From contig NC_049983.1 of assembly GCF_000003815.2 (NCBI RefSeq), positions 3,728,706 to 3,792,705 of the forward strand: DNA of 64,000 bases. The letters are read 5' to 3'. A model generated the notes under the pieces. The model saw only the letters and a list, made by a program, of their open reading frames with translations, did no database searches and was not told the origin of the DNA. Shown here in pieces: positions 4,899-42,400 of this stretch (position 1 is the first letter of the stretch; each line of letters starts with the position of its first letter). A program made the position numbers and the translations under genes. The DNA comes from Branchiostoma floridae. Taxonomy: Eukaryota; Chordata; Leptocardii; Amphioxiformes; Branchiostomatidae.

Positions 4899-7080
4899 TG
4901 CCTTAATGCCAGCTTACTATCACCTCATCTCACCATTTCTTTAGCCTCATCTATAGATATGATAGGAGAAAATAACATGGAAACCATTTTTGGAAGCCAT
5001 ATATCAATTTTGTATTTGTAATCAATTAACATATAGTGTCATATCACCACCAAAAACCCCACGATCACAGCCTATAGATACAGCACACGATCCTTTACAT
5101 CGGTATGTAAATGATAATCAATGGCCTGCAAACCTATTTGATATAGCCCAAAAAATTGTCATGCGAATTGTTGATGTGAGTAAACTTTTAGCCTAAACTC
5201 TCTAAACTCTTGACCAATGTTTAATATAAATATATCAGATTAAACGTTAGTCTGCACCTGGTCGCTGTTTTGTTTTCTGTATTCTCTGCGTCAATGGATC
5301 AAGGCTGATAAATATGCGCAGTGTAATAAACTGTTAATATGTCAGGATAAAAGCGTAAAGAGGGGAACGACAATACTCACGCGTGTGTCGTGCAGATTGT
5401 GACTGTTGAGAAGAAGACAGCGACAGAACAAAACGCAATTCGAGCAGAAAACACGGCGCAAGTGTAGCAATTAACTGGAAATGTTTGAAAGTTGGCAAAG
5501 AATCACGTTCTTTGCCAAAAAGATAACATAACGCGCCTTCTTCTGCTCGTGTCGTCACTACACTCTGCCGCTCCGGAAATATGCACACGCCCTTTCTAAC
5601 TTGCGAAACATTTGTTGAAACTTTTCAATTTATTGACGAAAGACATTCCTTGATGTAATTTGTGCTCAGGATTCAAGACCACCACAGTGACTGTAAAAAG
5701 ATCAATACAGACCGAATTTTTAACTATATTTTGATCCTTATAACGTTATACCTTTGTGTTGAATGAAAGTTTAGCATTGTACTATGATGACTATTCTCCG
5801 AGCAGAGGTTGTGTTGTGGAGATATAGCAGTAGTCTGGATTTTTACCGGCTCGTTCCACTGAGAGGAGAGAGCCGTAAAAATCCCGACTACTGCTATATC
5901 TCCACAACTCAACCTCTGCTCGGAGAATAACGATTACTACCAACACACATAGGCTTCCATGATAATTTGTTACGTTACAATTGTTACGTCAGACACGCTG
6001 GACAGCCTGCCGCTAAAACCGTGCATCTATGAATTTCCCAACCCCATTCTGTAACCATTACACTTATTTTCAGATACCAGGTGGGGTTTATCCACGCTCG
6101 TACCCAGCGCCGCGAAGAAGCCATAGGTTTAGATTGTGGGCTCAACCAATACACAAATAAAACTATATGGAATCCACAGCTGTCATTTTGTTTTGTTTTG
6201 TGTTTGTCTCAATTACCTTAGCAAATCGTAAGTTGTGTGACTCTTGGGTGCGTCACATACACACTATACAACGTGTGACTGTACCCGTTAGCTAGTATTT
6301 TCTACAGTTACCGAGGCGAAAACAAGACGAAAGTTTACTATTTCGGGGTTAAAATGTTGCCACAATGGTGATACGTTATATCAAAGGGAACTTTAAAATG
6401 TACCTAAATTGGTGGCACTGCGAGGGTGTTAGATTACCCTTCTAGATTGCCGAGAGGGGCGTTATGTCACGGAAGGGTCCCCAGGATACTACCGCCCTCC
6501 CAGCATGCTTCGCGCAGGAAAATACGTTCTCTGTCCCAGGGCTGTCTTTGCGAACAAACCGCTAGTAGCCCTCATGCGGCCAAAAAGTGAATTGCATAAA
6601 AGACTCGCACACGCATATTCAGTGGAACAAGACAATTTATTACGACGCTGTGAAGGAGCGTGGGGTTTATCATTGTATGTTACTTTGTACGCCCATTTGA
6701 CTTCAAGATCCGCCCAGGTAGAAAGTAAGCCTAGCCCTCGATGATAAGTCGCCATCATTTTATGGTTCAATAGCCAGTAAATGGTGTCCTCATGGCGACA
6801 GCAGCATTGTCATTTGATGGGCGAACACCCTAGAAACTTGAACAGCAAGCTGCAAACCAACGTCTGATTCTGGAGAGGACGGCTGGGAAGGTGCCTCTGT
6901 ATACGGAGGAGAATTATCTCTGAAATTCGTTGAGCATCTTTCGAACCCCGCAGTGCCACACCTGTGCCGCAAGTGCAGTGAAATATCACATACGTTATGA
7001 AAAATGATTAGTCATTTTTTTAAGTAAGACATTTTTCTACATGATTACCCCAAATGCTTGAAAATTACATTAAAGAATGG
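4899..7080. other. Intergenic DNA apart from the hairpin; no gene seen
   Basis: Short open frames (for example 6505-6744 and its antisense) lack splice signals and family resemblance. Around 6930-6985 is a fragment with AACCCCGCAGTGCCACACC, matching one end of the small element at 23638-23868. Confidence 0.5.
5792..5929. mobile_element. Foldback hairpin element 1 (CAAGCAGAGG-end family)
   Basis: Arms 5792-5852 and 5870-5929 are near-perfect inverted copies around a 17-bp loop. The outer end reads TATTCTCCGAGCAGAGGTT. The same end, with few changes, bounds the hairpins at 20304 and 22293, but the inner stem sequence is different in each. Flanking 8-mers 5784-5791 and 5930-5937 agree at 6 of 8 positions, a possible decayed target duplication. 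Confidence 0.8.
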
Positions 7081-9260
7081 ATTCGACGTCTTCTGATATA
7101 ACAAATAGCCAATATCCATAAAGACATTCTGCTGACTTCAAAGCCTCTCTTGGTTATTTCGTAAACAGAAGATGAAAGCTCCTCGAAAATTCCACAATTT
7201 TCTCAACGGAGCAGTTAACCAGGTATAATTCAGAGTAGTATGCATGGTTTTGTAGCTTTTACCCAATTTTTCTCAGTCTGTAGCTAAACTGTTTCATCCT
7301 CTAACGTTACAGAGGTGTTTCGTACATATCATAGATCACTAAGTCGCATGATTTGTAATTTATTTCAAGTGAAAAGGGGAACCTTTTTACACCCTTACGC
7401 CCAACCTTTCCACGTCTGCTTGGATATGACACTCACAAAGTTTGGATTTTAGAGTAGTCGATCTCAGATATTACAAATAATCATTATTCATGAAGGCATT
7501 TTTCTGTCTGTTTAAGCCTCCCTTCATTATTTTGTAAACAGAAGATGAAAGATCCCCAAACATGCCACAAATTTCTCAACATGACCCCACATGAATAGAA
7601 AACATCAGCAACAATTTTGTTGTTTCCATCACGGCGTTATTAGTCTGTAGTACCATTAAGCTAAATGATTATTCGAGTTTTTGTCTGCAGTGCACCATGG
7701 GAGGCTGGGTAGTACTAATGCTGTATTTGTTGAGATTGCACATCACATGTACATTCTGTTTTGCGTGCTTGTTACCTTAACTAGAAGGTTATGTTTTCGG
7801 TGGTCTTTGGGGTATGTGTGTGCGCGTGATTGTTAATGGACAGCATAACTTCTGAAGACTATGGTGGATTGTATTTGTTGATCAATATTTATCGGTCTTG
7901 TAGGTCTTAAAAAAAATTTGGCATGATTACATTTTGGTAGTAACATTTTTGGTCCTTAGCGACTTTTTACGTTACGGCAGCAGTACTTGCTGTTTTGATA
8001 TCTGACCGTATCTGATGGACGTAAGTGGTGGATAGCTTTTGGGTCAGAGTGTTAGTAAAGACGGTTTTTTCCCCCTAGTGGCTTTTTTTAACTGCGAAGC
8101 ATATTTAGTTTCAGACTTCTGAATCAATGAGCTGGAGTCCACAAAAGTTATGAGTTTTAGTATGCCGATAGCTAAAGTAATGCTTGATATAATTACGTGG
8201 TAATTTTGTTAATCTAATTTACATAATAAATCAAATGTAATTTTATAAACCCGCTTCGTTCCATAAGATGAGTGTAAAATTGAACATTCAATTTGATGGT
8301 TGGACATAATAAATGACAGAATTAGATAATTCAACAATGGCAAATTACTCGAATGTCATACCTGTGGAATTTAAAAATAACGTTTATGCAACCATCCTAT
8401 TAAACAAAAATAGGAAAATTTGATTTGCATGAGTGCTCTGAAAAATGCTAGTTGATTTATTCATTTGTCACTAGAACGCTCTCAACACATAGAAAATATA
8501 TGTACTTTGTGTCAATTTTTTGGTCTTACTTCTAAGACAATGTGTTAAGTTGGATCTGTTTGTGTAGTTTTCTGTTTACATGAGCACATTAATATGATTG
8601 TTCCCGTCTCGTTCTATTGTTTGATTTCTATTTGTGAGTTTTGTTATTATTACCGGTATTGTCGATGTTTCAAATATGTTTCGTACGTGTTCATCGTAAA
8701 TCATTAAGGTCTCATGATTTTTAAGTGTAAAAGCGGGCACATTCTGTGACGCCAATATATAATTTTCTCAGATGAGGTCACCCTAGTGTTGTTGTTCTGA
8801 GAGCGGCCATCTTTGTCCGCCATCTTTGTTTGTCAAGTATATTTCACTGTATAAAGTTGTGTTCGGTTGTGCACCTAATAAGCAGTCTCCGAGTCGTCCC
8901 TCGCGGTCCAAATTGACACTGCGGCAATATCATCCTTACGTCCTGCCTCCAAAAGTATGTTTGGCGATCTCAATAATTAGTCTGGATCTTAGAGTCGACG
9001 ATCTCTGATATCANNNNNNNNNNNNNNNNNNNNNNNNNNNNNNNNNNNNNNNNNNNNNNNNNNNNNNNNNNNNNNNNNNNNNNNNNNNNNNNNNNNNNNN
9101 NNNNNNNNNNNNNACCTGGTAATCAGGAATTAATCTTCCCTGCATGAATAGGAAACATCAGCAACGATTTTGTTATTCCCACCTGAGAGCTTTATTAGTC
9201 TGTGGCTAGGGTAGAAATGTTGATTATTCAACGTTTTCAGCATGTTAAGGTCTGAAAAAC
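7080..9260. repeat. Locally duplicated non-coding block interrupted by an assembly gap
   Basis: Segments near 7085-7230, 7440-7680 and on both sides of the gap (8960-9013 and 9114-9240) share runs such as GTAAACAGAAGATGAAAG and AACATCAGCAAC. This suggests two to three diverged tandem copies of a few hundred bases. The gap may mark a collapsed copy. No coding signal. Confidence 0.55.
9014..9113. other. Assembly gap, 100 Ns
   Basis: Exactly 100 N characters, the conventional size for a gap of unknown length. The true distance between flanks is not known. Confidence 0.99.
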
Positions 9261-11640
9261 ACTGCTGTAAAACACTGTTGTTCTGTTCGTTGGAATTGCA
9301 TGATATCTTTTTACATACTTTTTTTTAATCATCCAATGAGAAATTACAAAAAATATGCCATTAATTTTTAATTGGTGGTTAATTATTGTGGTATTTTGTC
9401 TCGAGCTTGATACGATGTATAAAGATTTAAGTTGTTTGCTTGCATATTTTGTGTTGTTCCTAATAATATGTGATTTTATTGAGATGCTAGTTCTTTGTTT
9501 TTCTTGTCATCGTCCTTTGAGTACCATGTAGGCGTTTGTCACTCATCAGATCACAAAATTATTAAATTCACAGGATTTGTTTCAAGGGGAGGGGCACTTT
9601 CTGCTACTGAAAATTGTCGCTTCACCCACACATCACAACTTCAAACATACCACACAAATCTGCATAATACTGACAGTTTCTTGTAATTATCAAATGCCAC
9701 TGTTTCTGCCTGATTGGCTATTTGTAGCAGTGCAGTCACGGGTCATTTATTCTTTTTTTTCATTCAACTTATACAAAAAATTAATTTGTTTGTATGTATG
9801 TATGTGTATATTGCAGCATATGCATATATCATGCATCTTTGTTGGCAACAAGCTAAGCTGTTTCTTAAATTTATCAAATAGAGTTATATTGTTTGGCTTA
9901 ACTGATATAGGAAATTTAATGAATAGTTATTTCTTTGCTAAACTGCCATTGGAAAATTTTCATTGGAATAATTAAAACCATTGGAATTATATTTTTTATA
10001 AGTTCTCATCACACACTCTGAATGTACACACAACGCCACAGAACAGTCAGAAGCTGAGCGGTTACAACATTCAGACATTTTATTACAAAACTCCTGTAAC
10101 CTTAACAGTTATTGGCTCTTACGGTACAGTACACAACTGTACATCATGCATGGTGGTTACAGTACTAGTATCCGTCATATTTGGGTTTGTATTGAGTAAA
10201 AAATGTTTACAATTCTAATACTAGTTTTTACAAAATTATGCATTGCTTATGAGAAAGGCAATATTTTTCAGAACATGTAGGTTGTTCCCTTTCAGTAATT
10301 TGCCTTTTGTCAAGCTACACACACAATACAATAACATTAATTAGGCTCTCCACCAAGGCTTCCTCAAAAGAGTGATAGAGGAAGAAGACGTAAGAAAGAA
10401 GAAGAAAAAGAACACACCACGAAAAACAATATTTTCCCAAACGGAAACAAAAATACATAATATGCATTAGGTTTCATCTATTACGCATGTTTGCGTAAAC
10501 ATTACAATATCATTCAATGTCTTACACATTATTTTTCACAGTTTTATATCTTTACTTATCAACATCACCTTATTGGCAAACTATCTTCTACAAGAAATAC
10601 ATTGTAAGAGATCTTCATGAATCAACTCTCATACTTCCACTTAAATAGTAGAATCATTCAATTCCTTGCACATCACATTGACCAGTCCGTATTTGCTGGT
10701 TGCTCCTTGACATATACTTGTATTCATCAACATCAAATTATTTACATCATTGAAGTCCACATTAACTTTGTAGTAGTGCAAGATATCAGTTGTATTAGTG
10801 TTGCCTTGTGAATGTACACACGTATAAGACTAGCTTCTACAAGAACTCACATTTTATCTTGTAAGCATTTAAGACCACAAGACAGATTTCATATACCCCT
10901 CATGCTTACACCATTACAGTATTATTTAATGTATTACACTACACTTTGATCAGTTCAATTTCACTAGTTGTTCCAAAGCATTAAATTGTGTTCATCAACA
11001 TTCATTTACATCATTAAAGTCTTCATGAACATGGCGGCATTGCACAAGATTAACGACACCATGGTCAAAAGTGAGTGGTCAACAGTTCACAATTCTCATG
11101 AGAATTCTCCTACATTTCTTTTAGATGCACTTTGAAAGGAATGACTCATCTGAAAGTCCCAAAGCAACTAAACGTTGAACATGCTGCATGTCACAGTTAA
11201 CATCACAGTATATAGTATGTAGATAGGAATGGAGGGTTTTTAATGGCAATAGCTCACATTGCCTTGTAGTCTATACATGGCACATATGAGACTAACTCTC
11301 TACATTTTTTTGCTTACGAGGGCAAATGTATTCCCTACTCAATGACAAGCATTAAGATGGTGATGGCTGCAAGGTTAATTTATCATTATCTTTGATATGT
11401 TGCTTCACCATGTTTATGACGATTATCATTTAACAATATGCATGTTGTAAAAGATCTGTTGAAGATAATCAGGGCCTTATGAATTGCTACAGTGCATAAT
11501 GGCATTTTGATATACATTGTACGTGGAGCACAGAACAAGGTATATCAGTTGAGGGATCCCAACTTGGCATACAAGTACATGGTTATGGTTTGTTGTCCAA
11601 TAGGTAGTTATCATGTACTATGTTCGGCCTCTGGATTAAC
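9261..11640. other. AT-rich intergenic DNA, no gene seen
   Basis: Contains a purine-rich GAAGAAG tract near 10370-10430 and scattered short frames. The longest (9577-9975) has no splice context and is dominated by low-complexity residues. I see nothing functional. Confidence 0.5.
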
Positions 11641-11730
11641 AGGTCCCGCGTTCGAAACCCATTGGTTGTCGGACTAACAGGTCCCGCGTTCGAAACCTTT
11701 TGGTTGTCGCTCATCCGACTTGCGCGATTC
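11620..11730. repeat. tRNA-B-box-like duplicated segment (SINE fragment)
   Basis: The phrase TAACAGGTCCCGCGTTCGAA occurs twice, about 39 bp apart, followed by matching TGGTTGTCG. GCGTTCGAA-ACC resembles an RNA polymerase III B box, so this is probably a fragment of a tRNA-derived SINE with a small internal duplication. No A box or cloverleaf was found. Confidence 0.4.
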
Positions 11731-11884
11731 ATGGCATGAACGGGTTCCCTACAATTGTTCACATTGCACTTCTGTTGAGGAGCAGGAAGACTTGTCATAA
11801 ATGGAAGTGAGTGAGAGAGAGAGACGGAGACAGAGGGACAGAGAGACAGAGAGACAAAGAGAAGCTTGGTGGAAATCCCCATTA

Positions 11885-12056
11885 CACTAGAAGTCAGTTA
11901 ATTGCACAACAGATAAACGCACACTTCTGTTAATTGCACGGAAACACCAAATCCCGTGGTGGCGTGGTCTAGCTGGAAAGCTTTTTGCACCATCCGGATG
12001 ATTGCACGAAATACGCTTACAATCAAATGGGGTGTGCAATTAAACGGCTTCTACTG
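11885..12056. mobile_element. pogo/mariner-like MITE with TA target duplication
   Basis: 172 bp flanked by TA at 11883-11884 and 12057-12058. Ends are inverted: CACTAGAAGTCAGTTAATTG on the left, and CAGTAGAAGCCGTTTAATTG as the complement of the right end. A truncated relative starts at 22019. TA duplication plus short inverted ends fits Tc1/mariner/pogo non-autonomous elements. No transposase. Confidence 0.75.
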
Positions 12057-12058
12057 TA

Positions 12059-13950
12059 GTAAATACTTTACCTAGTGATTTTCCCTTCTGTACGAACAGT
12101 AGAATGTTAAGTTTGTTAATGAAGCTTAGATTAATCTAGATAAATACTTTGTAGAACTGAATTTCTTTTTTTTCAAACTTGGAGTCCAATTCGTGATGCT
12201 GTCTAACTTCCATATGAGAACATTCACTTTTAAACAAAAGCTGAGTTAGAATAGAATCAAACTCAGTCCATTTAAGGGGTGAAGTATAAAAGAAAGTATT
12301 ACGAGTACAAGGTGTAAAACTTCTTTTCCTGAATTGTGTTTCTGACAATGTACAGTTTCTGTCTTCAAATAATTATGTGAAGTCAAGAGCAGTTTCTGGC
12401 CACAGCTACTTGTAGCTTTACCATTAATTCTTGCAGATGAAGTAGCTCAAGTGACACCCAACTTAGTGACGATAGGAACAAAGAATTTTTGTATCATAAA
12501 ATGTACAGGTCACAGATTTCTTGTTCTTCAGTTTGATGTTGACAAATGCTTCACACATGATTTACACAGCATGTATTATTACGACTAGTAAGACTTTGGA
12601 ATTTCAGAACGCTCCCTTTCTTTTACCAATGAATACCATGAATACAAAATGATGTCAACAGAAGACGGGCATTACCATTACCATTATACAAACAGTAGAG
12701 AAAACGGATCATTTGAAATCACAAACTTCATTTATGATAAAGATTATATATCTTACATCAAATTTCACATAAATTGGAACCACCATATCATTGTCTCATC
12801 GATATCTGTTTGATATCAGTTTGATAATCTGCCTTCAAGTTTGAATGCATTTAACAACATATTACCTTTAACAAGAAGGAGTTTTTTATATAAGATATTT
12901 GACTTTCTCTTGATAAATTAGATGATATAAATGATATACTGTTTCTTTGAGAACACACGACCAGAAAACTAAAATGATTCACACACAGCTGCTAGAGATG
13001 TGCATACAGAGATAGTTATTAGTACCCTGCTATCTTCTTATGTGTTTTTCATCTCTTAAGCTCGGTCCATTTATCCAGGAAAAGTGAACTAGCATTTGTA
13101 CATTGGGTTTTCAATACTCTATTCAGTCTGGATGCTGCCCAGTATAAAAACAATATCACATTTTTAAGGGGAGTGGCATCCAGATAATACTAGCTTTTGT
13201 AAAAGGGTGCAGAGGGTTATGTTTAAAGTCTAACAATTTCTTTTAACGGCCAGGATTTTCTAGAGGGTACAGAATAGTAACATACATGTAGATGTTCAAT
13301 CCACAACATATGTTAAATTATGCAAAAGGACTTCAAGAGAAATTTCCTATCTTTTATCGCAGTCAAATTTGGGTGGTGTGCTTTATATTGAATGTCATTT
13401 GAGCCAAAAAATGTTTGTTTTCATGTTTTAGAACCATGTGTTTTACATGGCAGCTCCATCCAGTCTCATTATGATTAAGATTTTTGGTTTTATACCAAAA
13501 ATCAGACTAGTCATAAATGTTTCCATCTCTATTGAACAATTTTTTTTTCTTCATTTTTTTAAGAAAAAAGAAAATCACACAAAGAAAAGTTCATTACAAG
13601 GGTAACCAAATACTTCATGTTGACAAATACAAATACAAGTACACAGGAGTTCAAAGACCTCATACCTTCTGCAGAATGACATTGCCGACTATAGAGTGAT
13701 TACGCAAAAAGTGCTAATTTCTGATAGATCTTATTTATCAGTCGATCATCTTCTCTATCACATTTATCCAAAGTATGGAATAAGGATATCAGCAAAAATG
13801 CAACTCTTAAAGTAGAGTTTTCTAAGTAATTATGCAAAATGGGGATCTGATTTGCATGATTTATGTCCCATAATCAGCTTCCAAATGCTGCAATTATCCA
13901 TCCACAACTTCTCGAGTTATGCTGTCTCATCTACAAAAAAGATGTACACA
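12059..13950. other. Intergenic DNA, no gene seen
   Basis: AT-rich with no convincing exon on either strand. It lies downstream (3') of the minus-strand LRR receptor. Confidence 0.5.
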
Positions 13951-13973
13951 AAGAAACGGCACCAGCTTTGTTT

Positions 13974-13979
13974 TTTATT
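13974..13979 (-). terminator. Candidate poly(A) signal of the LRR receptor
   Basis: AATAAA on the minus strand, about 190 nt past the TAA at 14171-14169. It supports ending the gene in this exon, but the GTAAGT donor-like site at the stop leaves a further exon possible. Confidence 0.4.
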
Positions 13980-14168
13980 CTGTTACAGAATACCGATGTT
14001 TGTTGCTGGTGATGCCGTTAAAAGAAATAACCGTTACGGTATAGTACAATTTCGTAATTGTGCAAAACTAATTGGTGGAAATGTTAAATGGAAACCTCAA
14101 AATTTGGGAAACAATGGAAAGATTGATGTCTGTCCAATTTTGTTCATCAATCCTTTCTTTTTTTGTAC

Positions 14169-17100
14169 TTACTGAACCTGACAGCGTGCGGATGTCGGTT
14201 CATAGCTGTTTGTCTCGGGGGAGTCTGGGGTGTCAGTTACTGCCTCTCTACGGTCATTCTGGCTGTAGGCCGGAGACCTGTCAGCACTGGCCGCAGTGGA
14301 CGGGCAGATGTAACTGATTCCCCGACCGGTGGCGGCATTGCCACGACCGCGGTCATCATAGATGGCGGACTGAGTACCCGACTCAATACTGGGCAGGGTG
14401 GCAGGCTGGTAGCTATTGGCCACAGCAGGGGACTCTGAGGAGTTGCAGAGTGCCTCACTATGGTCATGCTGGTCATATGTGGTAGACAGGGTGCGCTCCT
14501 GGTCAGTGGTCAGGGCAGGGGAGTTGTAGCAGGTGCCTTCCGGGAACCAGAGCCGCCTTTCTAGGGTCGCGCTGGTCATATGTGCTGGACAGGGTACGCT
14601 CTTGGTCAGTGGCCAGGGCAGGGGAGTTGTAACAACGTGCCTTGCGGGAAGGCTGAGCGGCGCTGGCATTCTGCTGGTAGGCAGAGGACTTAGTAGTACC
14701 CGGGTTTGGGAGAATGGATGGGTGCTGGTAGCACTTTTGGCCGGACTTGTCGCGACCATTGGGGCCATAGGCAGCCAGGACGGCGCCTTCCCTGTTTGGT
14801 GTCTGACGAGGGCGCTCGGTGCTGTAAGGGCGGGACGGCACGGGGTGTGTCTGCGCGCGGGCGCGGCCTGCGTACGCTGCGCAAAGCTTCGCCAATCCGT
14901 ACGGGACGATTTCTGATTGAGAAGAATCTGCCCTGCGCAGATCAGGGTGGTCCTGGAAACCACCCTCAGCGTAAGGGCTGATGACTGATTCTGAATCATT
15001 CAGGCTGTCGTGATCATTAAAACCACCCTCAGCGTACGGACTGATCACTGACTCATCCATGTTGCCTTGATCTCCAACAGGCCACCTGGAGCAGGCAGTG
15101 ATCTGGTTACCGTTACGGGACGGGCCTGTAGGGTTACCGGGGGCTTCGCGCCTGAGCCTACGCCAAATGTACATGGCACATACCCAAACTCCCAACACAG
15201 CAAGTGGCAACAACAGACCAATGACTGCCGACACGATGTACCACTTGAGGTCTTCATAGCCATCATCGCTCACGCCTGTGTACAGTGGTGTAATGCCAAT
15301 GCTTGTCAACGGCAGTGTGGTGCTGATGATGGTTGAGGATGGTGCCGTGTTAGTGAGTGAGAGTTCTGTGGCTTGGGGTGTTGTTATGCCAGAGTGTGCG
15401 CGCTTGCTCGCCATGAAGACGGCACTGTGGGAGCCAGTTTCCGAAGAAACAGTACAAGTGGTGGTCTGGAAGGCCAAGGGCTCGGCGGTCTCAAGCCAAA
15501 GGGTGAATCTAGTCTTCCCTATGTAGTTGGAATACAAGCTATCATTTCCAGATTCCTCCAACAGGTCATAAGATCCCATACATTTCAGCCAGCCCTCGGC
15601 CTTCAGGTCGGTCACCATTCTCACGGTCAGATTGCCTGTCGGCAGAATGTCGTGTGTGGTCGTGTTTGTGTCGTACGTGAAGCTAACCGCATGGTGTAAG
15701 CCGTTAGGGAAAGCACATGACACTACGGGTAACTGCTCCCAATACACGTCGCCAACGGCTTTGTACTTGTACGCAGCGCTGCCTTCAACACTCACGATCT
15801 CTACCAGCGGCGCTGGGCAGGGCAGTGATCTGGGACTGATCGCGGGAGGATTTGGGTTTAATGCCGAGGCGAGGCAGCCTGTGCCGAGGGGAACCCGGAT
15901 TTTCCCGATGAACTGCTGCTTGAACTTCAGGATGTTTCCCTGGTGTTCATACAGCCAGTCGTTCGCGCAGGTGCAGCGCGGAGGATCATCCAGAGGGATA
16001 CCTCCAAATGGTAAAGCCCTTCCTTCCAATGGGATGGTGGCAATCGCATTTCCACGCACAACCATAAAGAATGGAAATGACGATCTGAACCAACCACCAG
16101 ACAGGAAGGTCAACCTGTTGCCCGCCAGATTTAGGAATCGAATTTCCGTGTTTGAGTGAAACGCGCCCGCAGCGATGTGGAAGATTCTGTTACCCTCCAG
16201 GTTCAGGACTTTCAGCCGCTCAAGACCGTGGAACATCCCCGCGCCGATCGCTGTCAGTTTGTTCTCAACAGCGCGGACATGTTCTACGGACTTGATCGCC
16301 TGCAGGGTCCCGGGTGCTACGTTAGAGATACGGTTGGCACTTACGTCAAACCAGCTCGGCTGCACTCCCTGGAACGTGTCAGGTGACAGGGTCAGGATCT
16401 GGTTGTCCACAAGGATGACGTAGGACAAGCTGGGCAACCCATCCAAGCAGCCAGCCTGCATCAAAACGAAACGCAATGGCAATTAAACAAAATGTTGAAA
16501 TACAGAAATATAAATTTTCTTCACTTCAAAAACATATCAAACTGAGGAAGTTATTTACTAGTCAATGTACAAAAATTTATCCAAAACATACCGGCAATAG
16601 AAAACTGGCAAAAAGTGCATGTTCATCTGTTTCTCAAAGCTCACCTCCAGATGTGTCAGCTTGTTCTCCAACAGCAGAAGATACTTCAGACCATCCATCC
16701 CAGCAAACGTGCCGTTCCTCAGAGTATGGAGATTGCTCCGCCAGATAACCAGGGTAGACACCTGTGGCAACTTAGCAAACGCCCCTCCCTCTATCTCCGT
16801 TAGGTTACAACCCACAAACCACAACCTGCAAACTCTACCACAGGGGATCTGAGAGAGGATCTCTGCCTTGTCAGGGTCAAGCTTACCGACGTTGTTGTCA
16901 ACGATCATGATGTTGGTTCTGGCGGGTGGTAGGGAGGGGTTCTGAGTGGGACCCCCCTGGGTCGGATTTGTTTCATTTGAGCAGACCTGACAGGATTGGA
17001 ACACCTGACTCAAAGAAACTGTCTGAAATGGACCTTTGTAGCTGGAAACTTCACGTGGGTATTTGGTCCACTTGTACCGGTACGCTCCAATGTCATACCG

Positions 17101-17256
17101 GTACTCATGACCATCACTACGGCTGTCACCTACACCGCACTTTGCCACGGACACCCTACGGCAGCTTTGCCAGCTATCAGCATCTATACGTGACACCAGG
17201 AGCTGCAAGAGCAGCAACAAGCAGACTTTTGTCGCTAGCTTTCTTACCATGATCAA
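14169..17256 (-). CDS. Leucine-rich-repeat single-pass receptor with tyrosine-motif tail (apparent frameshift)
   Basis: Exon 1 is 17256-16645, exon 2 starts at 16455; the intron is 189 bp, GT-AG, phase 0. Start at 17256 gives a signal peptide (KLATKVCLLLLLQLLVSRIDA); the Met at 17250 is also possible. Order along the protein: a Cys-containing N-terminal region, LRRs from roughly residue 118 to 340 (LVIWRSNLHTLRNGTF, LKVLNLEGNRIFHIAAGAF), an LRR C-cap (RCTCANDWLYEHQ), a further ectodomain, one membrane segment at about 609-635 (YIVSAVIGLLLPLAVLGVWV) with RRLRR after it, then a tail of about 330 residues. The tail has two copies of ESVISPYAEGGF and many other tyrosines. Frame breaks near 14552-14557: one extra base would restore a frame running to TAA at 14171-14169. 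Alternatively the exon is spliced at GTAAGT just before that stop. A type I surface receptor; ligand unknown. Confidence 0.85.
14462..14660 (-). repeat. Tandem duplication inside the receptor tail coding sequence
   Basis: Two copies encode CYNSPAL-TDQERTLS-TYDQ. Matching points are 103 bp apart (14462 and 14565), which is not a multiple of three, so the second copy is in another frame. Copy-to-copy comparison places an extra base in the GCCGCC at 14552-14557. Confidence 0.75.
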
Positions 17257-18034
17257 ATTTAGCCTTCATGCAAGATAGAGATGGGGTACAATGGCAATGC
17301 TATATCATCATAAGGAAACAACTACAAAAGCGTTACCTTTTGTGTATCCCAATTCTGCTCATCGACAGAACCTAGACAGCGCAGAAAACAGACGTTCTCT
17401 CCAGTGGTGCAACAGCGCTCTGACTCAACAAGATTACCTTTCCACATGACTAAATTCTTTGTTTTTTTCAACACGCAAGCGCTGACTTCCCCTGAGAAGA
17501 AAGGCATTCCTAGGTCCCAGGTATTCACGTATGACGTGTTTCGCCATATTTGTTCTTATTAGTCTGAACGAGGAAAACAAGGAACCTATCAATGATATGC
17601 CTTTGATCACATTTTCCCTTGCTGCTACCATGGCCCTGTATTTTCAGTGGATATGGTTAGCTATTATAATCTGTATCATATTGCATATTGTCATTTCAGT
17701 ATAGACATTTGGCGAAACAAATCAGCTAAATGAATGTTAGACCCCATCGGTTGCTAAAATGGGGTAGAAATTTTCAAGACTTGGTAAATGATCTGCTATG
17801 TTTGAAAATAAGATTGTCTAAACGGATATATGACAATCTTTTCTACTGGATTATGTTCAACATAATGCAAAGACTACCCTGCAATTGTATTTATCTTATG
17901 TATGTATTTTGTCGTAATTGCCTATGTTTGTCCTTGGTATTGTAGCGTTTGTATTTTTACGCTAGGAGGCGTTTTTGTAACATATCAGCTACTTTCAGTC
18001 ACAGTACAGACCCCGTGAATCTGTCATGATCTTT
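17257..18034. other. Intergenic DNA upstream of the LRR receptor
   Basis: No gene seen. On the minus strand there is a donor-like AAAAG/GTAACG near 17330 that could end a 5' non-coding exon of the LRR receptor. This is only a possibility. Confidence 0.4.
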
Positions 18035-18038
18035 TTAA

Positions 18039-18250
18039 CCCTATTCAGACGGGGGGGGTGTGCTTTTGAGGCCTGCGCCAACTTTGTTGTCCTACAACGC
18101 CAGAACGGCTTACGCTAGAGCCACCAAATTTGGTGAGTTTTCCTAAAATATTGTTGGCAACAACTTTAAGAAGTTTGACAAATTTTCATTTTTGTGTTGC
18201 CATGGTAACCGTTTGTTGACAGGCAGTTTTGCCAAAAATCACTATTTTGG
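18039..18250 (+). mobile_element. TTAA-family repeat, truncated copy
   Basis: Starts CCCTATTCAGAC after TTAA (18035-18038), then CCTGCGCCAACTTTG and TTGTTGGCAACAA as in the complete copy at 33659-34211. The far end is missing; it runs out beside the SDR pseudogene. Confidence 0.65.
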
Positions 18251-18349
18251 ATCAAGATACTGTCCAATACGTCTTGAGGTAGGTTGCTTATCTTGATTGC
18301 CCTTCTTTTTATGACATCTAGCGAACTAATCATTTCTAGGTGCTCTCCC

Positions 18350-19120
18350 GTATTGAACGGAAAGGCGTCGCTGCAAAGCCAGCAAACGGTTTCAGCAACC
18401 TCCTCCGGCGCTGCTATGCGGCCAGCAGGGTGAATCATCGAAGCCAGCGTCTTCTCAAAGCCTGGCGGCGCCATTTCCAAGGCGCGATACGTCATAGGTG
18501 TAGCGGTGGTAGGGGGCAGACGGCGTTCACGCGTATCCCTTCCTTGGCGTATTCCATGGCAGCGGTTTGAGTGAGACCCAGAATGGCAAACTTGGACGCG
18601 CAGTAGGAAGCACTGATGTTAGGGACGGAGAGAAGACCCGACAGGCTGCTAGCGTTGACGATACTGCCTCGTACCCCGCGGAAGCGACACACGTCCGGCT
18701 TGTCGGCCCATCTAGCCGGGTCGCTCACGACGGGCTCCTGCTGCAGCATCTGTACTTCATACACAGCCACACACCCTTGGCGTTCACGCCCATGACGCGG
18801 TCGAACTCGTCTTCAGGCGCGTCTACGACTCTGTGGTTGTTGGTTCCCATTCCGGCACTGTTAAAGGCGCAGTCGATCCGCCCGAAGCGCTGAATCGCTG
18901 TGGTTACCATGGCTTCCACGCTTGTCGCCATGGTAAAGTCCATATGGACCGCGATCCCCGGAGTTTGGAGCATGCCCAGTGTCTCCTTGGCGCTCTCCTC
19001 GTCGATATCAACCAACTCACAGCTGTACCCGAGCTCAGCAAACCTGACCGCCGAGGCACGGCCGATGCCGCGCCCACCTCCCGTTACCAGGGCAACAAGC
19101 TTACCTCTGACGGCTGCCAT
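18350..19120 (-). pseudogene. Short-chain dehydrogenase/reductase, frameshifted and 3'-truncated
   Basis: The classical SDR layout is spread over three frames. 19120-18751 has VALVTGGGRGIGRA (cofactor loop TGxxxGIG, residues 13-20) and CAFNSAGMG. 18751-18516 has GSIVNASSLSG (catalytic Ser) and ASYCASKFAILG (catalytic YxxxK). 18515-18350 has MTYRALEMAPPG and PEEVAETVCWLCSD. One base is missing at about 18751 (within KYEML) and one in the G5 run 18512-18516. The sequence stops at FNTGEHLE, where the family normally continues to a conserved glycine-rich end, and no donor site follows; a TTAA-family repeat lies just downstream. CTAG/GTAACCATGG precedes the start and looks like an acceptor. Probably an inactivated NAD(P)-dependent oxidoreductase. 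Assembly error in the two indels is possible, but would not explain the lost 3' end. Confidence 0.65.
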
Positions 19121-19255
19121 GGTTACCTAGAAAATAGAAAGACGTAAAGTTTAGATTCGTTAGTTGACTGTACAATTGTTGTTTTGAATACACACGGAAA
19201 ATCAGTATCAACATTAAACCGCAGCTCTACGTCATGACCTAGACAACAAGGCAAA

Positions 19256-19257
<2 letters not shown>

Positions 19258-19308
<51 letters not shown>

Positions 19309-19465
19309 AACACACACACACATACACGTACACAAACGTATACCAATTCACTCAGACACACGCACACACTAAAACACATACAACAACAACATACACACTA
19401 ACACACATACACACTAACACACACGGACACACAAACACACTTTTACACACTATCAAGTCTATTTT

Positions 19466-19500
<35 letters not shown>
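19258..19500. repeat. CA and GA microsatellites
   Basis: An imperfect (CA)n tract covers 19258-19450 and a pure (GA)n tract 19471-19500. The open frames through them are repeat artefacts. Confidence 0.95.
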
Positions 19501-19504
<4 letters not shown>

Positions 19505-19734
19505 GCCATCTGTAAAGGGAAAAAAACAACATATTTGGTGTATGTAGTCTAAATTTTCCCATGCCATGCCCTCCTCTTATCACATACACACATATGAGAC
19601 TTAGACAAACAATATATATATATGTACATATGTATGTATGTCTATGTCTACTCTATACCTTCGAAAGGACTCAATTTCTTACTAAAACATGAAAATTAAC
19701 TAAACGTCACAACATAAACAAACAGCGTGGTCAC

Positions 19735-20059
19735 ATGAATAAGGAGTGCCATAAAAGGTTGAACATAATGGAGACCCTGGAAGAGGTGGAGTCGGCACTG
19801 GTTGAGACCGCGAAGCTGACTGAGGAGTTGGCTGCAAGGGAGCTGGAGGACACCGAGCTGGAGGAAGACGGTAAGAGGTCTTGTCATCTCCGCTGCATCC
19901 CTTTCAAGACGTTTCAGTCCAGCTAGTATATAATTATGTAGAAGACATATTTACTTCACCTGGTCTAAATTATGATGCAAAGGCCTGTGCAAGGTTTTCT
20001 TCTCATATGTGTGTTTTATAATACGAAAATGTATTCAATTTACAGGCGTCAAAAAGTGA
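19735..20059 (+). CDS. Short acidic coiled-coil C-terminal coding exons, function unknown
   Basis: Frame open from 19735 (a later Met at 19768 has a better context), ending at a good donor, GACG/GTAAGA, at 19870. An acceptor TTTACAG at 20045 joins in phase 1 to GVKK and TGA at 20057-20059. The peptide METLEEVESALVETAKL and what follows is Glu-rich and regular enough to form a helix or coiled coil. I recognise no family. It may be a very small protein or, more likely, the end of a longer one whose earlier exons I did not find. The CATAAAAG just upstream could be an acceptor. Confidence 0.45.
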
Positions 20060-20303
20060 AGCAAGCTCCCGGTGACCGTCCGGACGTCCGTAGGCATAGG
20101 GATTGGAACTTCCCATGGCGTCAGCTGGACAAGAGTAGCCATGGGATGATGTTTACTCAAATAAGAAGAACATTTCTGTAGAAAATTCTGTTAGATATTT
20201 CTCCAATCTATCTTATGGTGTGTCGTTGGCTTCCGTTTTGCTACCTCAGGCAAATTTGATTACGGTAGCCAAACTCCCGCGGCAAATCATTTTCCCTGTA
20301 GCC

Positions 20304-20408
20304 TCCTCTCGAAGCAGAGGTTGGTGGGAAAAATCGTGACCTTCTGCTTTCATATTTTTTTTCGACAAAAGGTCACGATTTTTACCACCAACCTCTGCTT
20401 GGAGAGCA
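20304..20408. mobile_element. Foldback hairpin element 2 (CAAGCAGAGG-end family)
   Basis: Whole element is an inverted repeat: left CTCTCGAAGCAGAGGTTGG, right the complement of CTCTCCAAGCAGAGGTTGG, then AAAATCGTGACC in both arms, with a ~35-bp AT-rich loop. Perfect 9-bp direct repeat CCTGTAGCC on both sides (20295-20303 and 20409-20417) reads as a target-site duplication. Confidence 0.85.
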
Positions 20409-20417
20409 CCTGTAGCC

Positions 20418-21044
20418 AGCGTATTAGTCCAGTCAACAACCTCCTTTGTCCAGTCGATAAAGAAATAGATAACCCATATTATCATCTTTGTTCAGAACTA
20501 CTAACCATGACGGCACAGCGACCTGGAGACATGACACGAGTAACCCCAAATTATACTCGACCAACTCCACACTCGCAGAGAAACCTAACAAGTAGCGATA
20601 TTTTCCCCGTTTTGTCAGACCCCAGTAGGGAGAGGGGGGCTGGTTTCAAGCGGACAGGCCTTCAGCCTGGCCCTGAACGACCCAATCATGAGAGCTGCTG
20701 CAACTCAGCCCAGCAGGGCATTCCATTGAGGGTAGTAGGGAGAAGAATGAGTATTTGTTTGCGTTGGTGCAGGTGTACCCCCGGGTACGCCCCTGGGCTG
20801 TGAAGCCTAAAGATTTGAAACTCTCACGCAAACAATTATACAGACAACAGGTCATGGCTGCAAAATGAAGGGGGAGCAATCTTAACGTCTTTCACTTTAC
20901 GAACTTCGACAACTTAGGCCTAGTTAAAAAAAATCGTGTTTCCTGTTTTAGTCCTGAAAAAATTAGGGTTGGTATAAGTAGGGATAATCTTTCTTTTTCT
21001 CAAACATTGGTTAGGCTTTGGACAAAATTCTAACTGATACAATA
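20418..21044. other. Intergenic DNA, no gene seen
   Basis: An open frame at 20321-20803 starts inside the hairpin and shows no family features. Nothing else stands out. Confidence 0.5.
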
Positions 21045-21230
21045 CTGGCATGGAAGTTCATCTGTGTTGGTATAACACATTGTGGAAAAAATTGCTAAGA
21101 CTTTACTTCCAACACTGAATCACTGTAAATTACTTCAGGGACTTACCCCTCTAAATTTTCGGTCAATATCCGTCGACCTTGTTCACAGAATGACCCTTTC
21201 TATCTACAACAGTGACGTCAGGAAATCAGG
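21045..21230 (-). repeat. Second copy of the 758-915 repeat
   Basis: Aligns by eye with 758-915, including the shared run GGGACTTACCCCT and the block around CCGTCGACCTTGTTCACAG. It ends just after the shared CAGTGACGTCAGGAA, short of the coding part seen in the first copy. Probably a 5'-truncated retroelement end. Confidence 0.6.
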
Positions 21231-22018
21231 ATGAATTATTGGCACATTAAACAGGTTTTGTAAAACTTTTTGACCCACAATGAATATGCATTATTTTTTA
21301 TTACAAACTAAGTTCCTTCTAATGCAATTTGTGATATATCTTTATATAAATATGGTGAGTTAAAGCGTAGATTTATTACACTGGACCACATACAGTAACA
21401 TGCGTCTAGAAGAGAGTTTTAATACTCGCCTGGAATGTACCATTGTCTAACTAAGCCATGAAACTCGGCAAGGAAGGAAGGGCCTTCGGAAGGGGCTTTG
21501 GAAGGGCTGGGTTAACAGGTCCATCCATTGAACCATTGAACCATGGAAAAAATCCAGCGGCAAGGCAAGAATTAAACATCTGAAAATCTGACCTTATATC
21601 GCGTGACACAACATGATTATCCGCAGTTAGTTTCAGGGCCTGTCTGTGTCTTTATGACCATCGTAACCAAGTTGTTTTTCCCTTAGATTTCATAACATTC
21701 TGTACATTTGTTCAGGAATAGAACGGACATGTAATAGTAACAATGTTAGCCTAATTAAGTACATAAAATAGAAAATTACAACTACTTTTTTTGATTGCAG
21801 GCCATTAATTTTTGGCGACGACTAAGGGGCTGAGCCTATTCTGTTACTTCTACTCCAAACAAAACTGTACAACGTGCTGTTATATCTTTCCTGTGCTAAT
21901 ATATTCTACGCCTTCTTCCTCTTAGCTTTGACTAATAGTGTCAACTTCTATGACCATGTAAAGGTTGTCCAAACGCGGGCAAAGGATTTTCAATATGAAG
22001 TTGTAATTTTGTCAATAC

Positions 22019-22062
22019 AGTAGAAGCCAGTTAATTGAACATCGGATAAATGCACAATGCAG
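22019..22062. mobile_element. Truncated end of the pogo/mariner-like MITE
   Basis: Begins CAGTAGAAGCCAGTTAATTG right after TA and continues with GATAAATGCACA, as in the left end at 11885-11920. The other end is absent. Confidence 0.6.
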
Positions 22063-22292
22063 GTGCCTCTAAGTTCTAGATTGAAGAGATTCGAGACATA
22101 CTTTGGCGCAGAGCAAAGTTTATATTCTTCTCCTTTCTCTGTTTTCTACACACGCAACACTTTCTCTCTGGAGCTCCTTCCAGACAGTCTGATCTACTTT
22201 TCCCTGACTCCCTCCCCTCTACCCTACTTGCTCTCTCCGAGTCACAGCACCAGAGCAGGTTCATCCTACATTCTAGAGGAAAAGAGGAGACC

Positions 22293-22492
22293 TACTTTTC
22301 AAGCAGAGGTTAGGCTCCGGCTGTTTTTTGTTTACGTTTCTTTGGTAGTTTTTATCGGGCTTTCTATTTTGTATTGTATCTTGTATTGTCAAAACCTAAC
22401 AATACAAGATACAATACAAAATAAAAAGCCTGATAAAAATGACTAAAAAACGTTTAAAAAACAGCCGGAGCCTAACCTCTGCTTGGAGAGTA
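22293..22492. mobile_element. Foldback hairpin element 3 (CAAGCAGAGG-end family)
   Basis: Inverted arms of about 95 bp meet with almost no loop near 22395. Outer ends TACTTTTCAAGCAGAGG and, complemented, TACTCTCCAAGCAGAGG. Inner stems (GGCTCCGGCTGTTTTTT, ATTGTATCTTGTATTGT) are unrelated to those of the other two hairpins. Flanks GGAGACC at 22286-22292 and 22494-22500 suggest an 8-bp duplication with one mismatch. Confidence 0.85.
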
Positions 22493-22500
22493 GGGAGACC

Positions 22501-32845: not shown

Positions 32846-33300
32846 TAGGGTGGTATATCACCGCACTTGGGGTACTGGTGTGGTACATCGGGGTTCGTTC
32901 ACTGCGGCACTGTTATTTTTGTCGCGGGTTCGAATCCGGCTGCCGTGTTACCAATCTTGTGCCCTTTACTCAGGTGAAAATGAGTACCTAGCTTCGGCTA
33001 CGGTCGTCCCTCGGATAGGACGTTAAATGGAGGTCCCGTGTTTGGGGAGAACTATACCCCAGGCACGTTAAAGAACCCGTTACACGTGCAATGGTACGGT
33101 GTGAGTGGTTCCAAACCTACAGTACCTTAGCCGCACCTAGCTTCGGCTAGGGTTGTCCCTCGGATAGGACGTTAAATGGAGGTCCCGTGTTTGGGGAGAA
33201 CTATACCCCCGGCACGTTAAAGAACCCACCACACGTGCAATGGTGCGGTGTGAGTGGTTCAAAACCTACAGTACCTTAGCCGCACCTGGGGCAATTACTG
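32846..33300 (+). mobile_element. tRNA-derived SINE with duplicated body
   Basis: A clear polymerase III B box, GGTTCGAATCC, lies at 32927-32937. The body, GGATAGGACGTTAAATGGAG through CACGTTAAAGAACCC, is a block common in invertebrate SINEs. It is present twice as 149-bp direct repeats (32986-33134 and 33135-33283). The part before the B box resembles the GGTGGTATC element at 23638 rather than a tRNA A-box half. Confidence 0.7.
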
Positions 33301-33658: not shown

Positions 33659-34211
33659 CCTATTCAGACCGGGGTTTTTTGTTCATCCCTGGACGGGGGG
33701 GGGGAGCTTTTGTGGCCTTCCATTTCTAAGTCCTATAACTCTAAAACGACGTGCCGTAAGGCCACCAAATTTTTTAGGACATGATGTCGACATAATATGT
33801 GACAAATATTTGACGTTTGACGTTACGATGACGTAAGATGACGTAATTATGACGTCATCAATTTGATTATATTGGCCGGACCCACGAAAAAAGGTATTCT
33901 CAGAAAACTTGAAGTTATGCTACAAAAATGTAACAAGTGCAGATAACAGAATAATAATGTTTATTACGACTTGTGTTTCCAATAGCAACATCAATGACAC
34001 GAATTAAAATAAAAAAATAAAATGACGTCATGCACATCTAAGATTTGAGTTGGGCTCCGCCGGTTGAGTGAAAAAACTCCATAAAATTGTTGCCAACAAT
34101 ATTTTAGGAATACTCATTAAATTTGGTGGCTCTAGCGTAAGCCGTTCTAGCGTTATAGGACATCAAAGTTGGCGCAGGCCTCAAAAGCCCCCCCCCCCCG
34201 TCTGAATAGGT
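33659..34211. mobile_element. TTAA-family element, complete copy
   Basis: Bounded by TTAA at 33655-33658 and 34212-34215. Ends are inverted: CCTATTCAGACCGGGG on the left, ACCTATTCAGACGGGG as complement on the right. Inverted similarity reaches about 100 bp inward (CCACCAAATT blocks on both sides). The middle is rich in TGACGTCA/TGACGTAA. No coding capacity. TTAA duplication is characteristic of piggyBac-type transposition. Confidence 0.75.
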
Positions 34212-34370
34212 TTAAGAGATTTCCTTGCTATCACATGCTAATGAGGCAAATCAGGGTTTTATTTGTAATATTAATGAGGACAGTTTATAAATACACTGCA
34301 TTTCATGTTAGAATGCTCAAAAGTATGCCATATGTAACTCACAAATAGAGAAATATTAGGCTTCCTTTTA

Positions 34371-34600
34371 ACCATATCCAGACTTGGGGGGGGGGTAAAG
34401 TGTCTGCGCCAACTTTGATGTCGTATAGCTCCTAAACGGCTTGTGCTAGAACAACCAAACTTTGTGACTTTCCGAAGAATATTCTTGGCAACAATTTACA
34501 ACAAAAAAAAACGTAAGCTTATAATTTTTGGGTTGCCATGGCAACGGGTTTCTGAAAGGCAAATTCTACAAAAATCAATAATTTGGGTTTAAACAATAAA
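34371..34600. mobile_element. TTAA-family element, truncated copy
   Basis: TTAACCATATCCAGAC followed by CTGCGCCAACTTTGATGTC and GTTGCCATGGCAAC, as at one end of the copies at 33659 and 55815. Other end missing. Confidence 0.6.
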
Positions 34601-39400: not shown

Positions 39401-42400
39401 CATACCTCCATGAAATAATAAGAGCTTTTGTAAATTTTATGCAAATGACTTGCACATTTACCTGATTTATGCAGGATGATGTTCATCATTGACTAACATA
39501 CACATGTCACAAGTATAAAATTCCCATCGTTAATCATTTGCGGTTTTGCAATTTTCCAAGATATTATGCAAATTAGTTCCAAGTTAGCATATTTTGTATC
39601 TGCTTATGTTCCATCTATCATAATTTAAATTTGTTACATTTATTGAAGTCCAGTTATTGAAAACAGTGGAATTATGCAATTTCGACATTAATTATGCAAA
39701 TTAAGTCCTCATTTGAAAAACATGCATGTCATTATAAACATCTTTGCTTAAGCTACCCGCATGCCTAAAATGATGTCAATCCGTCATTCTTTTCTGTAGT
39801 TAGCCTCTTTGGAATGTCGTGTCAAAACTGCCCCTGCAGTTCCAAAAATAAATGTTAGGAGGCTGAAACTTGCTATCTACCATTAAAGTACCAAGAAATC
39901 ATGAAATTTCGTTGTTCCCTTCTTGAGTTATCCACTTCAGAAGTTTTTGACAAAAATGCCCCTGCTATCCCAAAATTATTCGCTAGGGGGCCCAAACTTA
40001 TGTGACTTATTTCTGAGCACAAGAGCTATCTAATACTCAAAATTCGTGACCATATCTTATTCAAAGCATGAGATAGCAAAACCGGAAGGTGCACTGCAGT
40101 ACCAAGGGAAGCCGTTAGAAGGGCCAAAACCTAATCATTTCCATCTTTCATCACACCCCACAAACACACCAAGTATGAAACCAATCCATCAAGCTGTTCT
40201 TGTGTTATCTTGTTGACAGACAGACACACACGCACACAAACGCTAGTGAAAACATAACCTCCATGACATTTCATGGAAGTAATGAAATACATTTTACTCA
40301 CCCATTCCTGGAGTCCAGGACCAGGCCGTAAGGATCCTTGATAGCTGGTGACGTCAGAAGTGTCCTGGTGGACGATCCGTCCTTCTTTGCTACAGAGATA
40401 GTCCCTGCGCTGTAGACAGCCCAGTAGATATTCCCCCCAGCGTGATCCAATGCTATGCCATAGACCGCTGCAGAAAAGGTATGAGGACATTATTTGGTAG
40501 TCAACAAGAAATGTTTCAAAGTGTTCAGTTTACTTATTAAATCTTAATCTTAATGATTTATAGATGATCCTGGCATTTGGAGTAGACCATAATAGTATCG
40601 CAGTTCTCACAGATAGCTTTTCCAATGATGTCGGGTTTTTACCGATAGACCGGCACTTTCGACAACAGAAATGCGTAACTAAGACCATCATGCAGTCACT
40701 CCCTTTCTACTAACTATCACTGCATACTAATCTCCAAGCAGATGTAATGATTATATAACATTTGCGGCATTTCAAAGTCGTGTACAGATGATGTCCAAGC
40801 AGATGTAAGGATCTGGTTCATTCTCCGTCTTCTACACCAGTTTTTGCCACATTTATCATTCTTTTCCAGAACTGTATTCTTTTAAAGATTCGCTTTTTCA
40901 AACACAAACAATAGAGCAAATCTGGATCCTTACATCTGCTGAGGTCATCTGGACACTGCTTTCTTAAACTTTTTTTGGGATACGGCAGACCATAAATAAT
41001 GTATAGCATTTTGAAATACATGCTTCTGACATTAAATGGAAGGAATATAATGATAATCTATATCCCACTATATCTGCCGGTATCTATGATGGTCTCCATG
41101 CCACTTCCATCACGACGAGCCCGTTTGATGTTTTTGTTCCGCTGATCTGACCAGTACACATAGTCGGTGAGTGGGTCGTAGTCCAGGACGTAGGGCCGCC
41201 CAGCCAGTGGCAGTGTGACCTTTGACCCGGAAATGATGTCAACCTGGATGATGGTTTCTTCATCACGATCAGCCACCAAGAGGAATGGCTCACTGTTCTT
41301 ATGGGAGTCAGGGTATCCTAATGGGTGGAGGAAATCAGAGTATTGAATAATGTAACGGCTGTTTCCCATACAACTGCAATATTTCAATTTTTTATGACGT
41401 ACAATATCACGAAAAGTTTCACATTAAGGAATTATGATAGTCAATGTGATTATGATGCTGTTTTGGGCGATGCCTCAGGGGTTAGCCGAACTGTGTAGTA
41501 TACGTCCGATTGGCAAAAAATTCCCGGAATTTTGCAGGATATTTTCCGCGTTCGAAGTTGCTCATCCCTTAGAAAGGGAATAACTCGAGAAAGCGTTGAC
41601 GTATTGTCATGATGTTTGTGATATTTGAATGGCTTCAGTGATACGTTACATAAATAAACATTGATTATGCAAATCAAGGACTAACATGCATAATTAATGA
41701 GGACAGTTTATAAATCCACTTCATAGGACAATCAAACATATGACTATGTAACTGAAAAAGTTAGACATGCATTGATTATGCAAATGTTTCCTAATTTACA
41801 TATATCAGAGAGAATGTGTAATACAACATTGATAAATCATAGGAATTTTATTTTTGCTATATTTGGCAGCTACATAAATCATAGAAATTACGATATCATT
41901 ATTACGTATAAGAAAACATACATACGTTATTAGGAAACGATATAATAGCATTAATTGCATAAAACATTCTCTAATACAGCAAGGTTAATTAATATAACAC
42001 AAATACTAAAACATACCAACAACACCAAACGTACATTAACACATAAACCAAACCATTAAGCCGTCACCAAGACAATAATTTTTCATTGCCACCTTTTTAT
42101 ACTAATGATGTTGCCCAGCACACCGTCCCAAATAGCCCACAAAACAACTGAAACCCAACTCACGTGTCGTCTTGCACGTCTCGTCAAGACGCTGCCCCAA
42201 GGCGGCGGTTCGGCTTCGCTCCTTGTCCATGTCACGTTTCAAGGCGTCAACAGTGGTGGACAGTTGGTGTAAGTCGTCTTGGTCGCGCTTCAAGGCGTCA
42301 ACAGTGGTGGACAGTTGGTGTAAGTCGTCTTGGTCGCACTTCAAGGCGTCCACAGTGGTGGACAGTTGGCGTAGGTCGTCTTGGTCGCGTTTCAAGGCGT

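Follow-up and report, generated by a model that had tools for sequence, protein, structure and literature searches.

Hairpins with unrelated stems and a common tip in Branchiostoma floridae: probable foldback MITE families

How can three hairpins lying close together share their outermost bases and nothing of their stems? The question arose in a window of 64,000 nt (the whole stretch of DNA analysed here) of Branchiostoma floridae contig NC_049983.1, part of a 513-Mb genome assembled in 431 contigs. A first-pass annotation made from the sequence had proposed two answers, a transposase that needs only the terminal cap, or a mechanism that takes up arbitrary sequence and duplicates it in inverted orientation. 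In this work we compared the window elements with each other and with cap-bearing loci elsewhere in the genome. The hairpins are very probably non-autonomous foldback MITEs from families that have the same tip, and a transposase recognizing this tip would move them by cut and paste.

Three hairpins and their shared ends

The three elements and their flanking duplications are listed below.

5784..5791, + strand: left target-site duplication of the family C element, ATGATGAC (by eye; 6/8 match)
5792..5929, no strand assigned: foldback MITE of family C, 138 bp; tips TATTCTCCGAGCAGAGGTT, stem GTGTTGTGGAGATATAGCAGTAGTCTGGATTTTTACC
5930..5937, + strand: right target-site duplication of the family C element, ACGATTAC (by eye)
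20295..20303, + strand: left 9-bp target-site duplication of the family B element, CCTGTAGCC, perfect
20304..20408, no strand assigned: foldback MITE of family B, 105 bp; caps CTCTCGAAGCAGAGGTT / CTCTCCAAGCAGAGGTT, stem GGTGGGAAAAATCGTGACC
20409..20417, + strand: right 9-bp target-site duplication of the family B element, CCTGTAGCC
22285..22292, + strand: left target-site duplication of the family A element, AGGAGACC (by eye; 7/8 match)
22293..22492, no strand assigned: foldback MITE of family A, 200 bp; tips TACTTTTCAAGCAGAGGTT / TACTCTCCAAGCAGAGGTT, stem AGGCTCCGGCTGTTTTTT...TTTATCGGGCTTTCTATTTTG
22493..22500, + strand: right target-site duplication of the family A element, GGGAGACC (by eye)

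Inverted-repeat arms, folding z-scores and cap matches all confirmed the three near-perfect hairpins of the first-pass annotation. The first is an inverted repeat at 5792-5929 with 55-bp arms (96% complementary), the second an inverted repeat at 20306-20406 with 41-bp arms (93%), and the third, at 22291-22494, has outer arms of 39 bp (95%) and inner arms of 63 bp (83%). Their DNA folding z-scores were -21.9, -11.2, and -19.4, respectively, and 0 of 200 shuffles was equally stable in each case. The cap CTCTCCAAGCAGAGGTT was found seven times in the window when up to 3 mismatches were allowed (0.07 expected), and six of the seven matches fall on the hairpin ends. All of these ends are variants of TACTCTCCAAGCAGAGGTT. 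The shared terminus extends two bases beyond the cap, to TA in two elements and to TC/CA in the second (20304). The perfect 9-bp duplication claimed for at least one element is that of the second (CCTGTAGCC); the duplications of the first and third elements are imperfect and by eye fit 8 bp. After ∼21 terminal bases had been trimmed from each element, no interior matched another below E 0.06. The claim of a shared end on unrelated stems thus holds, with an end two bases longer than the cap. No Rfam family matched the window at gathering score.

Recurrent stems, inherited arms and target-site duplications

Exact matches to the 11-mer AAGCAGAGGTT number 4548 on one strand of the genome and 4552 on the other, vs 112 and 99 for the reversed control. 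As the main sample we took 75 exact sites on both strands of contig C1 up to 1.8575 Mb, which form an apparently complete run (C1 has 100 sites among the matches listed; those on the reverse strand end at 1.8575 Mb and forward ones reach 2.93 Mb). The second set consisted of 20 loci with 21 of the 25 forward sites listed past 1.8575 Mb on C1. All cap-bearing loci sampled outside the window come from the first 2.9 Mb of this one contig.

Stems could be assigned at 73 of the 75 sites (two were unreadable): 48 belong to family A, 9 to B, 7 to C, and 9 are other, of which at least four resemble decayed A or B arms by eye. An A, B or C stem is therefore present at 64 of 73 readable sites, compared with 18 of 279 random 55-mers from the same loci (300 drawn, those containing N dropped). 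In a loose test allowing up to 5 mismatches, 62 of the 73 sites had an inward mate within 800 bp. When up to 2 mismatches were allowed and the window was added, 102 of 105 arms were readable, and these were 62 A, 17 B, 10 C, and 13 other. The second-set arms were 22 A, 3 B, 2 C, and 7 other (34 readable of 35), so that 27 of 34 carry an A, B or C stem. Instead of the many unrelated stems under one cap that the first-pass annotation would have taken as support, a few recurrent stems dominate the sample.

A 12-bp core of the tip gave 62 inward pairs and 21 outward neighbors. The reversed core gave 0 and 16, respectively, and a second control word gave none of either kind. Clustering placed 50 of the 62 tip-pair elements in multi-member clusters, with groups of 37, 11 (D), and 2 (C), and left 12 alone. 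The group of 37 contains A and B together, linked by elements with mixed arms. Some of the 12 unclustered pairs look C- or E-like by eye. One small hairpin (locus L048, 763-857) has a private stem and clusters with nothing else in the sample.

Approximate element lengths are 190 bp in family A, 140 bp in B, and 130 bp in C. A fourth hairpin family, D (TAATCTCCAAGCAGATCCTACGGTAGCATAAGATAGTATCAAAAGCTGGC; 12 compared copies of 132-181 bp), and a less inverted family, E (TATTCTCCAAGCAGATGTAAGGATCYGG), are also bounded by TAHTCTCCAAGCAGA and have only this tip in common with the other families. Most elements measure 80-230 bp, too short to encode a transposase, and have inverted tips. They have the features of MITEs: short and non-coding with inverted tips, present in high copy with a family interior, and flanked by 9-bp duplications. 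The statement of the first-pass annotation that normal MITE families share their interiors applies to A, B, and C as well. It had also reasoned that a common interior in most copies would refute its idea; most sampled copies do share interiors, three main ones instead of one.

By stem assignment the window elements sort one to each family, 5792 to C, 20304 to B, and 22293 to A, and the family interiors were hidden in the window because its three elements represent one family each. The family A interior matched 30 loci (best E 5e-35). The family B interior matched two, L019 (89% over 35 bp, E 2e-6) and L012, and the stems of L067 and L069 are closely similar to it. The family C interior matched one (L029 1673-1766, 75% over 97 bp, E 6e-13). 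In the same search 5 of 20 random control pieces of the window had some match, as expected in a repeat-rich genome. A further part of the window also proved to be related to these elements:

40728: second, lone tip TAATCTCCAAGCAGATG near the family E relative
about 40789..40947, no strand assigned: decayed family E member, TGATGTCCAAGCAGATGTAAGGATCTGG, inverted at the right end (end set by eye)

The interior of 40728-40960 gave 9 matches in 5 loci (best E 6e-10), which assigned it to family E, and no target duplication was seen at the flanks of 40789-40947. Judged by these matches, 40789-40947 is a fourth, older relative in the window. The stretch 40728-40960 also weakly matches the interior of the third element (63% over 93 bp, E 5e-4).

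Inverted copying at every insertion would leave the two arms of an element more similar to each other than to any other arm. We compared the arms of elements assigned to A (n = 33), B (n = 5), D (n = 12), and C (n = 3), leaving out 10 mixed or unassigned elements. Mean arm identities within and between copies were 0.752 and 0.733 for A, 0.772 and 0.738 for B, and 0.706 and 0.746 for D. When each copy was tested against the best-matching arm found elsewhere, its own arms were mutually closest in 0 of the 50 A, B, and D copies; this best-of-many comparison is biased toward other copies, and the mean identities carry the argument. Since the arms in A, B, and D are about equally alike within and between copies, the hairpin is inherited in the sampled copies, not remade at each insertion. 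From these arm sequences we concluded that it is an old shape in the better-sampled families. For the three family C copies the values were 0.874 within and 0.721 between, and in two of them, the window's included, the arms are closer mutually (0.90) than to other copies. Re-inversion may have occurred within the family C lineage.

The first-pass annotation had pointed to target duplications beside cap pairs, and these were found. Duplication lengths of 6-12 bp were scanned at offsets 0-4, and then 7-11 bp at the chosen offset. The best fit was 9 bp, with the element taken to end in TA two bases outside the cap (TA was present at 52 of 70 left ends and 59 of 70 right ends). Mean 9-bp flank identity over 70 elements was 0.524, vs 0.258 for mispaired flanks. 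A match of at least 8/9 was seen in 22 of the 70 (15 of them perfect), compared with 0.04 expected from mispaired flanks, and was absent in the other 48; three further elements have a perfect 8-bp duplication, and 45 have neither the 8- nor the 9-bp form. The 22 duplications are biased to G at the first position and C at the last. This pattern is the behavior of a cut-and-paste transposon. The length of 9 bp falls in the range of 8-11 bp given as the target-duplication criterion of the MULE superfamily in the part of PMC6446971 consulted.

The partner transposase and competing explanations

The preferred reading can be set out as follows. Families A, B, C, and at least two more (D, 130-180 bp; E) have the terminal inverted repeat TAHTCTCCAAGCAGA in common. 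A single transposase, or a small set of related enzymes, would recognize the ∼15-bp tip and tolerate any interior. At the origin of each family there would have been a single event that formed a small palindrome, such as the duplication in inverted orientation of one end of a larger element, followed by amplification of this founding palindrome as a unit. A Mutator-like (MULE/Phantom) enzyme is suggested, and favored only because of the 9-bp duplication and the long inverted repeats, as in Tm1 and Muta1 (see below).

A search of the genome gave 27 MULE-domain matches (best E 3e-19). The consulted part of PMC6446971 states that MULE transposases were undetected in B. floridae, despite an earlier report for that species, in contrast to the 27 matches in the present genome. 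We read 13 of the 27 loci, each over 3.8-4.7 kb or about 2 kb on either side (five with 100 to 744 unread bases), and found no full tips bounding the MULE domain within that distance. The 13 loci contain seven cores with up to 2 mismatches, where we estimate about four by chance: one each in L070 and L079, two in L073 (one with 1 mismatch), and three in L082. Those of L082 flank the domain in inward order; they lack both the outer TA and the sequence that usually follows, and were rejected as element tips. Another MULE locus, L072, carries inverted repeats of its own.

Merlin and KDZ/Zisupton transposons also make target duplications of 8-9 bp. There were three Merlin-type matches, of which two were read to about 1 kb on either side, and the sole good tips were those of a D element at L084; this element is complete, lies 0.8 kb from the domain, and by eye has its own duplication (GCCAAAACT/GCCAAAACC), which marks it as a separate insertion and not as the Merlin ends. 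KDZ domains gave 12 matches at 8 loci. At the one locus read, a perfect cap stands about 360 bp before the KDZ domain. The reading of KDZ as the partner, first suggested by this cap, was dropped: KDZ-like coding stretches, recognized by a motif in ORFs inspected by eye, also lie upstream of the cap, which thus apparently stands between transposase exons, with the element ends beyond the read. An inverted partner of this cap arm within L083 scored 22.5, vs 15-21 for ten shuffles, and none is claimed. The gene with the same ends that the first-pass annotation proposed to look for, i.e., an autonomous element with the shared tips, was not found within the stretches read at 16 transposase loci (13 MULE, 2 Merlin, 1 KDZ).

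Several explanations can be weighed against these results. If the cap drove the capture of any adjacent sequence and its copying in inverted form, each insertion would have its own stem. The three mutually unrelated window stems, the private stem of the L048 hairpin, and the two family C copies with mutually closest arms agree with that expectation, but A, B or C stems recur at 64 of 73 sites and in 27 of 34 arms of the second set, every window stem was matched elsewhere, and arm identity is about the same within and between the 50 copies of A, B, and D. We consider capture very improbable. Families that share a short end, probably recognized by one enzyme, need no sequence-capturing mechanism, and what looked like a new mechanism reduces to a set of tip-sharing MITE families with 9-bp duplications. 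The other proposal, a transposase needing only the cap, is plausible insofar as at least five families share just the ∼15-bp tip; its enzyme was not found at the 16 loci. That a single such transposase moves at least five hairpin or near-hairpin families and accounts for the thousands of genomic tips is a tentative idea, possible but doubtful. If it is true, any short palindrome gaining two tips could become a family, and the L048 hairpin would be a newborn one.

Two further readings are compatible with the foldback-MITE explanation. A and B could be sister derivatives of one large autonomous element instead of unrelated passengers, one MITE having been folded from its left subterminal region and the other from its right. 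The element at L025 1703-1933, with an A-like left arm and a B-like right arm, and that at L047 2669-3070, with an A right arm and a left arm that by eye is not A, are what such an origin would leave, although both may be chimeras from recombination or nesting; the sample contains no large element with one A end and one B end, and C, D, and E would need additional parents. We regard this origin as rather unlikely. Alternatively, the enzyme may belong to another superfamily with 8-9 bp duplications, such as Merlin or KDZ/Zisupton, or the parent may have been lost from the genome. The 13 MULE loci without full tips (of 27 matches) and the presence of KDZ and Merlin domains in the genome argue for it; on the other side, tips were not at the transposase gene ends in the one KDZ and two Merlin loci, where the ends may lie beyond the read. 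For this alternative the balance is about even.

Under the foldback-MITE explanation, hairpin families with different interiors and one tip form a natural series for the minimal sequence need of a transposase and for the origin of palindromic elements. The partner enzyme, once found, would make these questions testable.

Comparison with known systems

High-copy amphioxus MITEs named LanceleTn-1 to -4, probably from the same species, were reportedly described by Osborne et al. in 2006. By this description they resemble A to E, and they may be identical with them. The name 'LanceletTn-2' occurs in the part of PMC5802833 consulted. The word 'LanceleTn' and four cap pieces of 14 or 15 bases matched no paper in a literature search.

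As far as the consulted sections of PMC3169594 go, the Mutator/Foldback family Tm1 of root-knot nematodes resembles the amphioxus elements in that a single set of terminal motifs encloses internal regions of more than one type, among them an abundant MITE-like class that has inverted repeats between its ends, and in having 9-bp target duplications as the commonest. The Tm1 ends are of composite build, tandem repeats of ∼14 bp combined with asymmetric outer motifs, whereas the amphioxus tip is a simple ∼15-bp repeat; and a Phantom-like transposase lies inside the same ends in Tm1, whereas no parent of the amphioxus families was found at the loci read. The Muta1 MULE of Aedes aegypti likewise makes 8- or 9-bp duplications, and its non-autonomous members have the same ends as the parent (PMC5225508, sections consulted). 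The Muta1 transposase is known and tested, in contrast to the amphioxus families, which were linked to none among the loci read, and according to the same sections Muta1 has no apparent target preference, whereas the amphioxus duplications lean to G first and C last. We concluded that several foldback MITE families with one tip are a known kind of thing.

Caps in direct and back-to-back order

At L026, a locus elsewhere in the genome, three caps lie within positions 6302-6464 in direct rather than inverted orientation, spaced 62 and 84 bp apart, and every one of them is followed by AGGCGGGATGA and a G-rich stretch; the interval is a short tandem array of a single cap-bearing unit. At two further loci, L052 (180-215) and L057 (194-229), a pair of caps stands back to back with one TA common to both (GGAGAGTACTTTTCAAGC). 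No duplication was found between the paired caps, and the sequence downstream of the right cap is identical at the two loci. The paired caps are a multi-copy composite element.

Other repeats in the window

Window 48539-49122, 34084-34497 and 45937-46091: long inverted repeats, arms 75-140 bp, 75-85% complementary
Window 42231-42919: tandem repeat, unit 51 bp, 13.7 copies
Window 34936-35239 and 32986-33287: tandem arrays, 42/84/168-bp and 149-bp units

The cap is absent from the three long inverted repeats, which are probably unrelated elements. The 51-bp repeat has an open reading frame on both strands, and its minus-strand reading is RQLSTTVDALKRDQDDL, repeated.

KDZ- and MULE-type transposase loci

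G000:C15:16404400-16412400 (L083): perfect lone cap at 2670
G000:C19:2134300-2138400 (L072): MULE-domain locus

The L083 cap, which is followed by the A-like AGGCTAAGGCTG, apparently interrupts a gene for a KDZ-type transposase, with coding sequence on either side. L072 contains TCGGCAAAAATATCT repeatedly, together with an inverted repeat of 26 bp. Whereas an excerpt of PMC6446971 gives MULE transposases as not detected in Branchiostoma floridae, our genome-wide search returned 27 matches to the MULE domain.
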